From NCBI RefSeq assembly GCF_007990545.2, contig NZ_AP019829.2, positions 1,240,001 through 1,304,000 on the forward strand: a stretch of DNA of 64,000 bases, read 5' to 3'. The stretch is from Leptotrichia wadei. Its GTDB lineage: Bacteria > Fusobacteriota > Fusobacteriia > Fusobacteriales > Leptotrichiaceae. A program made the translations under genes and the position numbers. Positions within the stretch are counted from its first letter, which is position 1; every line of letters starts with the position of its first letter. The notes under the pieces were generated by a model, which had not been told where the DNA came from, searched no databases, and saw nothing but the letters and a program-made list of their open reading frames with translations. This document shows positions 9,250-14,642 of the stretch, one piece after another.

Positions 9250-9886
9250 TTATTCTGTTTTCACATCTGCAAGATCTGAATATAATTCTTTTAGAATAAT
9301 TTTTGTTTTGTCATCAATATTTACTAAATACCATTTATTTTTATCTTCAAATACCAAAGTTTTTTGATTTAATTCTAACTTTTGACCTTGAGCCAAAATT
9401 ATACTTTTTGCAGGTATAATAGCATAATTTCTTCCAGCACTTGTCTGTCCTGTCTTTACATTTTCCAAATCATATTCATATTTTTCAAATTTCATATTTT
9501 GTGTAACATCTTTTAATAGCTGTAATGTCATTTCTTTTGCCTTTTGCGAGGTTGTAGAAAGATGTTTAGCTTCCCATTCCCAAAGTTTTTCAGGTACATT
9601 TTCCATACTTGAGCTTGCATCTCCTGCCATCGCATCCTTTGAAATTTTGTCAACTTTTTTAGAAATTTCAGGCTTCATTTTACTCCACCATTCTTGTGCC
9701 AATTCATTTTGTGCCTGCTCTACATTCTTACAAATTTTTTCATCTCGCTTTTCTTTACATTTTAAAACTGTTTCTTTATAGCAATTTATCATTTTTTTTC
9801 AAATTTTCTATGCTATATTTATTTCCACAAGATGTAAAAATCATTGTTGAAACTGAAATTAGAAGTAATAATTTTATTTTTTTCAT
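9250..9886 (-). pseudogene. Small lipoprotein gene, frameshifted in a poly-A run (paralogue of 13366-13929)
   Basis: The long open frame starts at 9792 without a good start, but a separate frame from the ATG at 9886 (after an AGGA box) encodes a lipoprotein signal with lipobox FTSCG. The two frames meet at eight A bases (plus-strand T run 9792-9799); seven A would join them into one protein of about 211 residues. The body shares WW/AWxxxKPEI, NKISKD, ENVKxGxT, GRNYAIIP and FEDxNKWY with the product of 13366-13929. I do not recognise the family. It could be phase-variable, a real loss, or an assembly error at the homopolymer. Confidence 0.75.
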
Positions 9887-11313: not shown

Positions 11314-11618
11314 AGCCAAAATGTATAAAGCAGCACCTTCAATATCAAATTTAAGATAGGAAGGAAGTTTTCCATTTTATCAAATAAAACAGAGGGAAAA
11401 ATTCAAATAAAATGTATAATATTGAATTGAAACAGTACATTTCATAATGTTTCATAAAAAGTGATATTTACTCTTGCAATTTACCTTAAGATTTATCAAT
11501 AATATTATACCTTTTTTCATACGTTTGTCATGCTATAATATGCAGGCAGGTCCGCAATCCTTCTCATACACAACAATATCTTTTAAACATCGAAAAAATC
11601 TTTTTCATCTCTCTTTCT

Positions 11619-11655
11619 TTAAAAATAAAGAGTTCCTAAAGACTAGAAACTCTCT
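11619..11655 (-). terminator. Intrinsic terminator after the CPBP protease gene
   Basis: On the minus strand, a GAGTTTCTA/TAGGAACTC stem with a five-base loop is followed by TTTATTTTT, immediately after the stop of the gene ending at 11663. It lies within a repeat also found at 12990-13047. Confidence 0.75.
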
Positions 11656-11692
11656 ATTTAATTTAAAATAATTTATAATTAAATAACAAGTT
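11637..11692 (-). repeat. Imperfect direct repeat flanking the CPBP/bacteriocin unit, copy 1
   Basis: About 55 bases here match 12990-13047 in the same orientation: ACTAG-AA-TCTCTATTTAA, AAAATA-TTATAATTAAA, with scattered differences. The pair encloses the CPBP gene and the bacteriocin-like remnant, so the unit may have arrived or been duplicated as one block. Confidence 0.6.
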
Positions 11693-12517
11693 AGAAATGA
11701 CAATAACAAGTATTACAAATAAATACAATGCATTATCCTTTACAAATTTAATAATATTTTTTCTATCTCCACTATTTAATTTAAATATTGAAAAAATTTC
11801 TTTATATTTTTTTCTTATTAGACCTATAATAAAAATTATAATAAGAACAACTATAAAGATTCCCATAGCTATCATTATATAATCATTATAATATGAATAT
11901 TTTCCTAAATTTGCGATTATATTTAAAATTATATGTAATTTTATAGAATATTTTAGCGAATACCTATAAGTAATATATGAAAGAATAATTCCTGCTAAAA
12001 TTACTCTCCCTATAGCATTTATATTAATATGATAAAATCCAAATAGAACCGAATTCATTATTATAGCTACTTTATATCCATGCTTCATTAAGTTATTCAT
12101 TAATATTCCACGAAATATAATTTCTTCTAATATAGGAGCTATTAAAGAACTTAATATAATATTAGTAATTATATAATAAGTTGTACTTTCATAATTATAT
12201 ATAATTTTGCTCTCATTATTATAACCAATTCGGACATTTATCATTATAAAGTTTACAAATACTATTATACCCAAGTAAAATATAAGATTATTAAACCTTA
12301 AATTCTTTCGTTTAAAAAAATATTGATTTTCTTTCATAGTCTTTTTTAAATAAAATATTACTGGAAAAAATGACACCAGATATATTACAGTATCTGTAAT
12401 ACAATATACTTTTGAATTCTCAAAATATACAATATATTTTTCATTTATAATTTTAAATATGATATAAAAAAAACTTGTTAAGCATAAAAATAATGGTATA
12501 TTTTTAATTTTTTTCAT
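11663..12517 (-). CDS. CPBP (Abi) family intramembrane glutamic endopeptidase
   Basis: This 284-residue protein has about eight membrane helices. The EExxxR motif (ILEEIIFRG near residue 136) is the catalytic Glu pair and Arg of CPBP proteases, and a downstream FGFYHIN carries the conserved His; a third His-type motif near LHIILNIIAN fits too. In lactic acid bacteria such proteins sit next to double-glycine bacteriocin genes and give self-immunity or process peptides. Here a double-glycine leader gene remnant lies about 95 bases upstream on the same strand, which supports that role (inference). Confidence 0.85.
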   Translation of the reverse strand: MKKIKNIPLFLCLTSFFYIIFKIINEKYIVYFENSKVYCITDTVIYLVSFFPVIFYLKKTMKENQYFFKRKNLRFNNLIFYLGIIVFVNFIMINVRIGYNNESKIIYNYESTTYYIITNIILSSLIAPILEEIIFRGILMNNLMKHGYKVAIIMNSVLFGFYHININAIGRVILAGIILSYITYRYSLKYSIKLHIILNIIANLGKYSYYNDYIMIAMGIFIVVLIIIFIIGLIRKKYKEIFSIFKLNSGDRKNIIKFVKDNALYLFVILVIVISNLLFNYKLF

Positions 12518-12611
12518 AAATTTATCCTTTTTAAAACCTAAAAGTATTATTCTTAGTTCTTACTTTTATTTATATTTTCAATAACTAGTATATAATATTT
12601 AAATTATTTAA

Positions 12612-12862
12612 TTAATGTCTTTTGCAACTATTCCAACTTTTACTTATTTGTTGTGTGGCTTTCCACTTGTGATAGTCTTCTACCCTTGTCTAATTGCTGC
12701 CAATTGCAGGATGTTTTCCATCGTTTGGACCAAATAAAAATTGAAGACCTACATATGTCAAACTCTTTTAATCACTACAGCCCATTCTCTTTTACAGTTC
12801 TTTTTCTTTTCTCCACCATCAATTGTCATTAGTTCCATTTTATTTAATTCTACAATTTTCAT
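12612..12862 (-). pseudogene. Double-glycine-leader bacteriocin-like peptide gene, disrupted
   Basis: From the ATG at 12862, after a good AGAGGTGA box, the product starts MKIVELNKMELMTIDGG, an exact fit to the LSxxELxxIxGG leader cleaved by bacteriocin ABC transporters. The open frame stops after 34 codons (12758). Shifting the frame by one at that point restores a plausible Gly-rich tail (YVGLQFLFGPNDGKHPAIGSN), followed by a stop and another 25 open codons to 12612. I read this as a bacteriocin-like gene broken by a frameshift. A functional 34-residue peptide remains possible. No transporter of the needed type is in the window. Confidence 0.65.
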
Positions 12863-12989
12863 TTTTATCACCTCTAAATTTTTTTAAATTATTAATATAC
12901 GTATTATCCCCTCCCTTTATTACTATTTTTGTTAAATTGATTTTTATTTAATTTTTTAATAGTTTAAAATTATAATTAAAATAAATTAT

Positions 12990-13047
12990 TCTAAAAACTA
13001 GGAATTCTCTATTTAAATTAAAATATCTTATAATTAAACTGATAAAT
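12990..13047 (-). repeat. Imperfect direct repeat flanking the CPBP/bacteriocin unit, copy 2
   Basis: Partner of 11637-11692. It directly precedes the truncated tpx copy and retains most of the sequence but a weaker stem than the terminator in copy 1. Confidence 0.55.
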
Positions 13048-13055
13048 ACAGAAAC

Positions 13056-13303
13056 TTACTTTTTCATCAAATTATTTTCCAAGAATTTCAATGCTTTCTC
13101 AACATCAGCTTCTTTTCCTTCTTCCGGCACATATTCAATATACTTTACAACATTATTTTCATCAACAATCATGAGTGCTCTTGTCAAAAGACCTTTTTCC
13201 TTTATAAAAAATCCATTTTGAATACCAAATTGATGATATTTAAAGTCAGAAACTGCTTTTAATCCATTAATTTCATTGGCTGTACAGAATCTTTCCTGAG
13301 CAA
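13056..13303 (-). pseudogene. Truncated thiol peroxidase copy (3' part only)
   Basis: These 248 bases are nearly identical to the 3' end of tpx at 13992-14239, with only a handful of differences seen by eye, including the same stop. The fragment begins at the codons for QERFCTANE, so it has the resolving-Cys region but lacks the peroxidatic Cys and the signal peptide. At 13303 homology breaks directly into TPP riboswitch sequence. It has no start or ribosome site and is non-coding debris of a duplication. Confidence 0.9.
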
Positions 13304-13365: not shown

Positions 13366-13929
13366 CTATTTTATTTTAGCTAAATCTGGATACACATCCT
13401 TTAAGAAAATCATATACTCTTTTTCATAATTGATAATGTACCATTTATTTCCATCCTCAAATGCCATTGTTTTTCCTTCGCCGTTTATTTTTTGTCCATT
13501 ATAAATTATTGTAACTTTGGTTGGTATAATTGCATAATTTCTTCCTGTTTCAGTTTTCCCTACTTTAACATTTTCAAAATCATAGGTATTTTCAATTATT
13601 TTCATATTATCTGTTAGTTTACTCATCGTTTTTATAGTTATATTTTTAAGTTCATTTACAGACATAGATCCCTTCTTAGCCAAGTATGTTAAAAATTTTT
13701 CCGGCATTTCATCAAAACTTGCTTTATAATTTCCTGCGACCAAATCTTTTGAGATTTTATTTAGCCGTATCTTAATCTCAGGTTTTACTCTTTCCCAAGC
13801 TTCCTTTGCTGTTTCTCCTTTTTTACTATTTTGAACAGTTGTATTCAAGTTTTGATTTCTATTTTTATTTGCAGGAGCAGTAAATGTAACAGCTGAAACA
13901 ACTAACAATAATAAAATAATTTTTTTCAT
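13366..13929 (-). CDS. Small secreted protein of unknown function, intact paralogue of 9250-9886
   Basis: This protein has 187 residues from the ATG at 13929, preceded by GGAGG; the upstream in-frame ATG has no such box. The N-terminus MKKIILLLLVVSAVTFTAPA looks like a signal peptide without a lipobox Cys, unlike its paralogue. The rest is charged and carries ENVKVGKTETGRNYAIIP and AFEDGNKWYIIN, shared with the other copy at roughly 40 percent identity by eye. I do not recognise the family. It lies 60 bases downstream of tpx on the same strand and is probably cotranscribed with it, hinting at an oxidative or envelope role (inference). Confidence 0.75.
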   Translation of the reverse strand: MKKIILLLLVVSAVTFTAPANKNRNQNLNTTVQNSKKGETAKEAWERVKPEIKIRLNKISKDLVAGNYKASFDEMPEKFLTYLAKKGSMSVNELKNITIKTMSKLTDNMKIIENTYDFENVKVGKTETGRNYAIIPTKVTIIYNGQKINGEGKTMAFEDGNKWYIINYEKEYMIFLKDVYPDLAKIK

Positions 13930-13991
13930 TTTTACCTCCAGAAGATTCATTTTTATTAATTATACCTCATATTTTTACATTTTCAAAATTT

Positions 13992-14642
13992 TTACTTTTT
14001 TATCAGATTATTTTCCAAGAATTTCAATGCTTTCTCAACATCAGCTTCTTTTCCTTCTTCCGGCACATATTCAATATACTTTACAACATTATTTTCATCA
14101 ACAATCATGAGTGCTCTTGTCAAAAGACCTTTTTCCTTTATAAAAAATCCATTTTGAATACCAAATTGATGATATTTAAAGTCAGAAACTGCTTTTAATC
14201 CATTAATTTCATTGGCAGTACAAAATCTTTCCTGTGCAAACGGAGTATCAACAGTTACAGAGTAAAATTTCACATTTGTATGAGTTTTAGCAGCTTCATT
14301 TAACTGTTTTGTTTGTAGCGAACAGACTCTGGTGTCAAGTGACGGTGCTGTGTAAATTACCTTTATATTTTTATCTTCAAAAATATTTTTTTCTTCCAGT
14401 TTTGTATTCACTACTAGAGGTACTTCTTTTATTTTATCGCCAACTTTTAATTCTTTTCCAACTATTGTTATTGGAACTTTTCCCATTGTAATTTTTAAAT
14501 TATTATCAGCTTTTAAAGTATCCAAATATTGTGTATATTCTGCATTCTGTCCTGCCTTTCCCGTTTCATTATCCACCTTTGATTTATTCTCACAAGCAAT
14601 TAAGATTGCGGCTATCGCTCCTAATAATATTACCTTTTTCAT
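13992..14642 (-). CDS. tpx: Thiol peroxidase, lipoprotein form
   Basis: This protein has 216 residues, longer than cytoplasmic Tpx (about 165) because of a lipoprotein signal with lipobox LIACEN near residue 17 and a short linker. The Tpx core has the peroxidatic site PSLDTRVCSLQTKQLNEAA (Thr and Cys of the TxxC motif) near residues 99-117 and the resolving Cys in RFCTANE. Tpx reduces hydroperoxides using thioredoxin-type electrons; an envelope-anchored form would act outside the inner membrane. A near-identical 3' fragment lies at 13056-13303. Confidence 0.92.
   Translation of the reverse strand: MKKVILLGAIAAILIACENKSKVDNETGKAGQNAEYTQYLDTLKADNNLKITMGKVPITIVGKELKVGDKIKEVPLVVNTKLEEKNIFEDKNIKVIYTAPSLDTRVCSLQTKQLNEAAKTHTNVKFYSVTVDTPFAQERFCTANEINGLKAVSDFKYHQFGIQNGFFIKEKGLLTRALMIVDENNVVKYIEYVPEEGKEADVEKALKFLENNLIKK

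Follow-up and report, generated by a model that had tools for sequence, protein, structure and literature searches.

Loci that combine a bacteriocin peptide, a CPBP membrane protein and a C39 exporter are known from Gram-positive bacteria. The CPBP/Abi proteins of the plantaricin and sakacin 23K loci reportedly act in immunity, which Kjos et al. (cited in PMC9298176 and PMC4860687) are said to have tested in Gram-positive hosts. In these loci the gene of a small double-glycine bacteriocin adjoins that of a CPBP membrane protein carrying the EExxxR and FxxxH motifs, as it does in the locus reported here; unlike those systems, the present locus has a broken bacteriocin gene and a CPBP protein for which we infer immunity.

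In a putative cluster of a Gram-negative anaerobe, Bacteroides sp. 2_1_56FAA, a CAAX/CPBP gene (pfam02517) likewise directly follows the peptide gene. This cluster includes a C39 ABC transporter, but it belongs to another phylum and encodes another peptide, and the copy studied here is decayed; in the passages of this survey cited here, Fusobacterium appears with Linocin M18-type hits only (PMC4573289).

The present locus lies in a stretch of 64,000 nucleotides from Leptotrichia wadei (NZ_AP019829.2, positions 1,240,001 to 1,304,000; hereafter the window). Literature searches returned neither a description of this locus nor a described peptide-export and immunity cassette of the Leptotrichiaceae. 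It is probably an immunity-only remnant of a class II-type peptide-bacteriocin cassette, with the CPBP gene as the putative immunity gene, and together with its relatives it extends the range of dedicated cassettes for peptide export and immunity to the Leptotrichiaceae (Fusobacteriota).

Layout of the locus and decay of its peptide gene

On the minus strand, the window carries a promoter relic, a peptide relic, a CPBP gene, a hairpin and an exporter stub, in that order (compared genomes bear G numbers, G000 being that of the window):

12991..13038 (-), upstream hairpin copy, decayed, the right repeat of the original prediction; intact counterpart upstream of the peptide gene in G006 and G008
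12903..12935 (-), decayed promoter with TTAACA at 12930-12935, a 21-nt spacer and GATAAT at 12903-12908, aligned to the TTGACA-poly-G-TATAAT promoters of relatives
12812..12862 (-), double-glycine leader MKIVELNKMELMTIDGG, identical in G011 and near-identical in G006 and G008
12615..12862 (-), peptide gene relic, with a frameshift after ~30 codons and a further in-frame stop; intact homologue at L040:11623-11874
11663..12517 (-), intact CPBP (PF02517) membrane protein of 284 aa, putative immunity protein
11623..11655 (-), hairpin with a 16-bp stem between the CPBP and exporter genes, the left repeat of the original prediction
11536..11590 (-), C39-peptidase ABC exporter relic, comprising the start and first codons with an 11-nt deletion

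The predicted 34-codon frame was found at 12862-12758 (-), with the ribosome site GAGGTGAT upstream; it consists of the leader, 17 further residues and a stop. The leader at 12862-12812 (-), LNKMELMTIDGG, is of the EL..I.GG type, although it does not match LSxxELxxIxGG exactly as had been claimed: it reads LN..EL..I.GG, an N standing where the consensus has S. The frame scored 18.3 bits against Pfam PF10439, below the gathering score of 27.1, so that taken alone it is only suggestive. The intact peptide of G006 is also under this cut-off (20.4 bits).

The G006 gene, of 83 aa counted from ATG, bears out the prediction that a decayed gene for a bacteriocin-like double-glycine peptide lies next to a CPBP gene. 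Its product and the window relic aligned in two different frames (E 1.4e-15 and 3.3e-12), and stops occur within the aligned stretches. The window copy must therefore have suffered two lesions or more; these alignments, together with the DNA alignment to G008, rule out a chance reading frame. At a threshold of E 10, the G006 peptide found matches in 7 of the 33 genomes of the family. The proposed one-base shift is a real frameshift, but it does not restore the gene as was suggested, because a further in-frame stop follows in the continuation. Nor is there a Gly-rich tail, the mature part of the intact G006 relative being 9% Gly. This mature peptide is hydrophilic (GRAVY -0.87), which, like its Pfam score, speaks against a bacteriocin. 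An open frame for the mature peptide is present in G006, G022, G030 and G011.

A relic of the exporter, missed in the original prediction, was recognized from an alignment of the window to G008 (91% over 316 nt, spanning the end of the CPBP gene, the hairpin and the exporter start), which also revealed the 11-nt deletion. In G008, the CPBP gene is followed by genes for a 718-aa C39 ABC exporter (655.6 bits against NCBIfam TIGR01193, cut-off 523.85) and a 374-aa HlyD-type adaptor, and the relatives together give the original cassette order as peptide, CPBP, C39 exporter and HlyD adaptor. The check that had been proposed, a search of related genomes for an unbroken reading frame and for a C39 ABC transporter, was thus positive (G006 peptide; G008 exporter). 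Residues C16, H94 and D110, which we take to be the catalytic Cys, His and Asp of the C39 domain, are invariant in the 4 aligned exporter proteins. Of 98 Fusobacteriota genomes, 16 encode C39 domains that score above the family cut-off. OEP/TolC-family genes are present in 13 of 13 genus genomes, so that the cassette has a potential outer-membrane partner, albeit one encoded elsewhere. Judged strictly, the window copy does not qualify as a functional bacteriocin gene: it has no open frame for the mature peptide, falls short of the Pfam score and is accompanied by only a stub of a full-length PCAT/TIGR01193 transporter, which G008 does encode. In another genus of the family, contig 18 of G019 (L103) carries six small double-glycine peptide genes around a C39 exporter and an HlyD gene, and one of the six peptides passes TIGR03949.

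In this reading, an intact cassette would make a small peptide with a double-glycine leader, which the C39 peptidase of the dedicated ABC exporter would remove while the exporter, with its HlyD adaptor, pumped the peptide out; a TolC-like outer-membrane channel encoded elsewhere would probably take part, and the CPBP membrane protein encoded beside the peptide gene would protect the producer. As the peptide gene, promoter and exporter are decayed but the CPBP gene is intact, the strain most probably no longer produces a bacteriocin here and keeps resistance to the peptide of a relative. Homology, gene order, lesions and the retained CPBP gene are read directly from the sequences, and the presumed antibacterial activity, export route and immunity build on them.

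The original prediction had the two genes enclosed by direct repeats of about 55 bases. Repeats do exist (11636-11683 and 12991-13038; 48 nt, 88%), but they are copies of an intergenic hairpin of the cassette rather than borders of a mobile element: the pattern was found in 9 of 11 scanned sequences, always beside cassette pieces, which rules out insertion borders. The hairpin precedes the C39 gene, and in G006 and G008 the peptide gene too. It folds (81 nt) at -17.5 kcal/mol (z -2.5) with a 16-bp stem, which the copy upstream of the window peptide has lost.

A 248-nt direct repeat, 98% identical, at window positions 13056-13303 and 13992-14239 represents a second copy, beside the cassette relic, of the 3' end of a redoxin-like gene (13992-14642, -). 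Similar small proteins flank the cassette at 9250-9792 and 13366-13950; a Pfam search with them gave nothing above cut-off. A partial, diverged second trmD (G000:C1:1352247-1352738; 71% identical to the query, one internal stop) lies away from the intact trmD of the same genome at 1.49 Mb. When G000 was compared with G006, G008 and G011, no clean empty site could be demonstrated, because trmD and trpS lie apart in G000, whereas the cassette sits between them in the other three.

Retention of the CPBP gene

As predicted, the gene at 11663-12517 (-) encodes a CPBP protein with EExxxR and FxxxH motifs (59.6 bits against Pfam PF02517, cut-off 22.4); HxxxN is also present, and all three motifs are invariant in 12 of 12 aligned proteins. 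Searching the PDB with the CPBP profile gave zero matches, and a scan of wider genome contigs, from which near records may have been excluded, found no relative. The protein is 89-90% identical in G006 and G008, where the same peptide precedes it.

The intact CPBP-linked peptides of G006, G022 and G030 were combined in a profile, with which 98 genomes of the phylum were searched. Matches at E up to 0.5 were obtained in 16, and in six of these, all from one family, the match extended beyond the leader with E below 1e-7 (window, G006, G008, G022, G030 and G031, the last identical over the compared 7 kb to Streptobacillus notomytis LJRV01000130.1, Leptotrichiaceae). The G011 match lay mainly in the leader (E 2.8e-5), and the other nine were weaker. 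The peptide gene is intact in three of the six loci (G006, G022, G030) and broken in the other three by differing lesions, with a frameshift in G008 at a different place from that of the window and an internal TGA in G031. The exporter is intact in G008 and G031 only; it is cut to 404 aa in G006, and in G030, G022 and the window it is broken or reduced to a stub. Peptide and exporter are both intact in none of the six, and the adjacent CPBP gene is full-length in all six (284, 284, 284, 293, 279 and 279 aa). If the four lesions in the peptide and CPBP genes, of which the window has two and G008 and G031 have a single one apiece, are distributed by length, all would miss the CPBP gene with a probability of ~0.226^4 = 0.003, a rough figure, the six loci being a small sample and related to each other.

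Could the whole locus simply be decaying under no selection, with a CPBP gene that by chance has not yet been hit? The decay of promoter, peptide and exporter alike would fit, as would the CPBP dN/dS of 0.30-0.42 (three pairs among the window, G006 and G008), which indicates weaker constraint than in the exporter (about 0.1, G008/G011) or the neighbouring methyltransferase (0.12). We nevertheless regard this as unlikely, given six full-length CPBP genes out of six against three broken peptide genes and four broken exporters, and the invariant CPBP motifs. The CPBP gene also shows fewer amino-acid changes and zero stops when compared with random placement of the same substitutions, which did as well with P of 0.026, 0.0014 and 0.05 and introduced a stop in 50-72% of trials. 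These comparisons suggest modest purifying selection on the CPBP gene, and the decayed window copy is probably accompanied by a functional immunity gene.

Somewhat less likely still, the peptide would be a secreted signal or a processed substrate rather than a bacteriocin, and the CPBP protein would cut or sense it. C39 exporters also move signal peptides, as described in PMC6363468, and the CAAX protease SilX of the Streptococcus anginosus bacteriocin locus, in the account excerpted from PMC9298176, does not act in immunity and has a role in signalling. The CPBP-linked peptides, moreover, are hydrophilic and vary widely in charge (pI 4.7 to 10.2). Against this stand the absence of a histidine kinase or regulator among the ORFs adjoining the cassette in G006, G008 and G011, the replacement of the CPBP gene in G011 by that of an unrelated 59-aa membrane protein, and the exchange of peptide and neighbour as a block behind a fixed leader (see below), which is typical of toxin-immunity pairs.

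It is very improbable that the CPBP protein is a member of a membrane-protease family general to the genus, with an accidental place beside the peptide, since, although ~40%-identical paralogues occur in 8 of the 13 genus genomes searched (the window's own included), several adjoining trpS, a CPBP gene is adjacent in six of six peptide loci from three genera, including G022 and Streptobacillus. Such paralogues, found beside trpS or nearby without the cassette peptide, mean that the CPBP protein could have another role; those beside the cassette site in G006 and G008 may come from older cassettes, because the window exporter relic and CPBP end align there too. On balance, adjacency and retention point to immunity of the CPBP protein to the neighbouring peptide, which we infer from these two observations.

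Exchange behind a fixed leader and promoters with G runs

G011 shares the leader of the window, and its exporter is 98% identical to the G008 exporter. The mature part of its peptide, however, is a different one, rich in Gly (99 aa, 27% Gly), and the position of the CPBP protein is taken by the 59-aa protein, in which two helices were recognized by eye. In an alignment of G011 to G006, identity is 82-92% through promoter and leader, drops to noise level directly behind the GG codons and is ~90% again from the hairpin into the exporter. Promoter, leader and exporter are thus fixed, and the peptide and the candidate immunity gene are exchanged.

A second cassette relic occurs in the genome of the window (G000:C1, ~88.4-89.2 kb, 88400-89200; L042 8413-9205). 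It holds the terminal part of a G011-type peptide gene, the 59-aa protein gene, which is intact and has a good ribosome site, the hairpin, and codons 1-101 of the exporter, whose start codon is absent. This stretch, with nearly identical borders, is also present in G006, G010, G012 and G014, the last belonging to another genus, that is, in five genomes of two genera, and pairwise comparison of their 59-aa proteins shows 0-3 differing residues. This fits an immunity gene kept after loss of the rest, in a sample that is small and close.

The promoters of the relatives differ in a run of G. In G011, TTGACA is followed by a 17-nt spacer ending in 11 G and by TATAAT, and in G008 the spacer is of 20 nt and ends in 14 G. 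G006 has TTGATA, a spacer of 14 and an interrupted G run, and G030 has TTGACA-18-TATAAT with no G run; a promoter of this kind was looked for and not found for the G022 peptide or two G019 peptides. The window promoter, missed in the original prediction, is decayed (TTAACA-21 nt-GATAAT) with an interrupted spacer and no poly-G tract. A sigma-70 promoter should lose much of its strength when its spacer grows from 17 to 20 nt, and slippage would then work as a switch. The poly-G promoters of the two relatives (one genome per species was compared for run length) are candidate phase switches, lost in the window copy.

Runs of 9 or more G are absent from G000 and number 11 in the 13 genus genomes, spread over 7 of them. 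First-order statistics predict ~10.7, which excludes an excess of long G runs, and only their position is unusual: TATAAT directly follows in 7 of the 11 (TACAAT in one), with P about 1e-17 for 7/11 at offset 0 from the observed TATAAT frequency, a value weakened by homologous sites and AT-rich intergenic DNA, both uncorrected. Two of the seven are the homologous cassettes, and two others (G004, G010) precede related proteins. With a threshold of at least 8 G before TATAAT, 9 sites were found in 6 of 13 genomes. The other poly-G sites have no clear TTGACA and unrelated genes downstream; L085, L086, L088, L089, L091, L098 and L100 have 8-11 G directly before TATAAT, also with unrelated genes downstream. 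Poly-G before TATAAT in several genomes of the genus is possibly a wider promoter switch.

A more general model is somewhat less likely than not. The Leptotrichiaceae would share an interchangeable cassette with a fixed promoter, leader and exporter, in which the mature peptide and its immunity gene are exchanged together and slippage of the poly-G run forming the promoter spacer switches expression at random (17 nt/G11 would suit an active promoter, 20 nt/G14 an idle one). The peptide would be lost repeatedly while the immunity gene is retained (CPBP, or the 59-aa protein at the second site), giving immune non-producers like the window strain. If the poly-G promoters do slip, bacteriocin production in the Leptotrichiaceae would be a random on-off trait. 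The locus also offers concrete targets for asking whether immunity is kept once the weapon is given up.

Comparison with known systems

In the pneumococcal blp locus, as far as the cited sections describe it, CAAX proteases are among the putative immunity genes, the immunity genes outnumber the bacteriocins, and peptide and immunity genes are mixed, all of which resembles the present case; unlike blp, the present cassette belongs to a different phylum and no quorum-sensing genes were seen at it (PMC4860687). The nap island of Neisseria, in the excerpted account, resembles it in having double-glycine peptides with a C39 peptidase in a Gram-negative host, and phase variation by homopolymers has been suggested there; its tracts, however, lie inside reading frames, whereas the poly-G of the relatives lies between -35 and -10, and the likeness of the peptides is one of type (PMC11798529).

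The Paraclostridium sordellii plasmid NZ_CP124282.1 groups bacteriocin, PCAT, HlyD and CPBP genes in a different order, and the likeness is in the kinds of genes and in the exporter (~65% identical at the DNA level to that of G008). The nearest solved structure to the G008 exporter, over its whole length, is PCAT1 (PDB 4ry2; E 3.6e-216), while the window retains only a stub of such an exporter gene. The cassette is of a known kind with new members, and the poly-G promoter is its most novel part.
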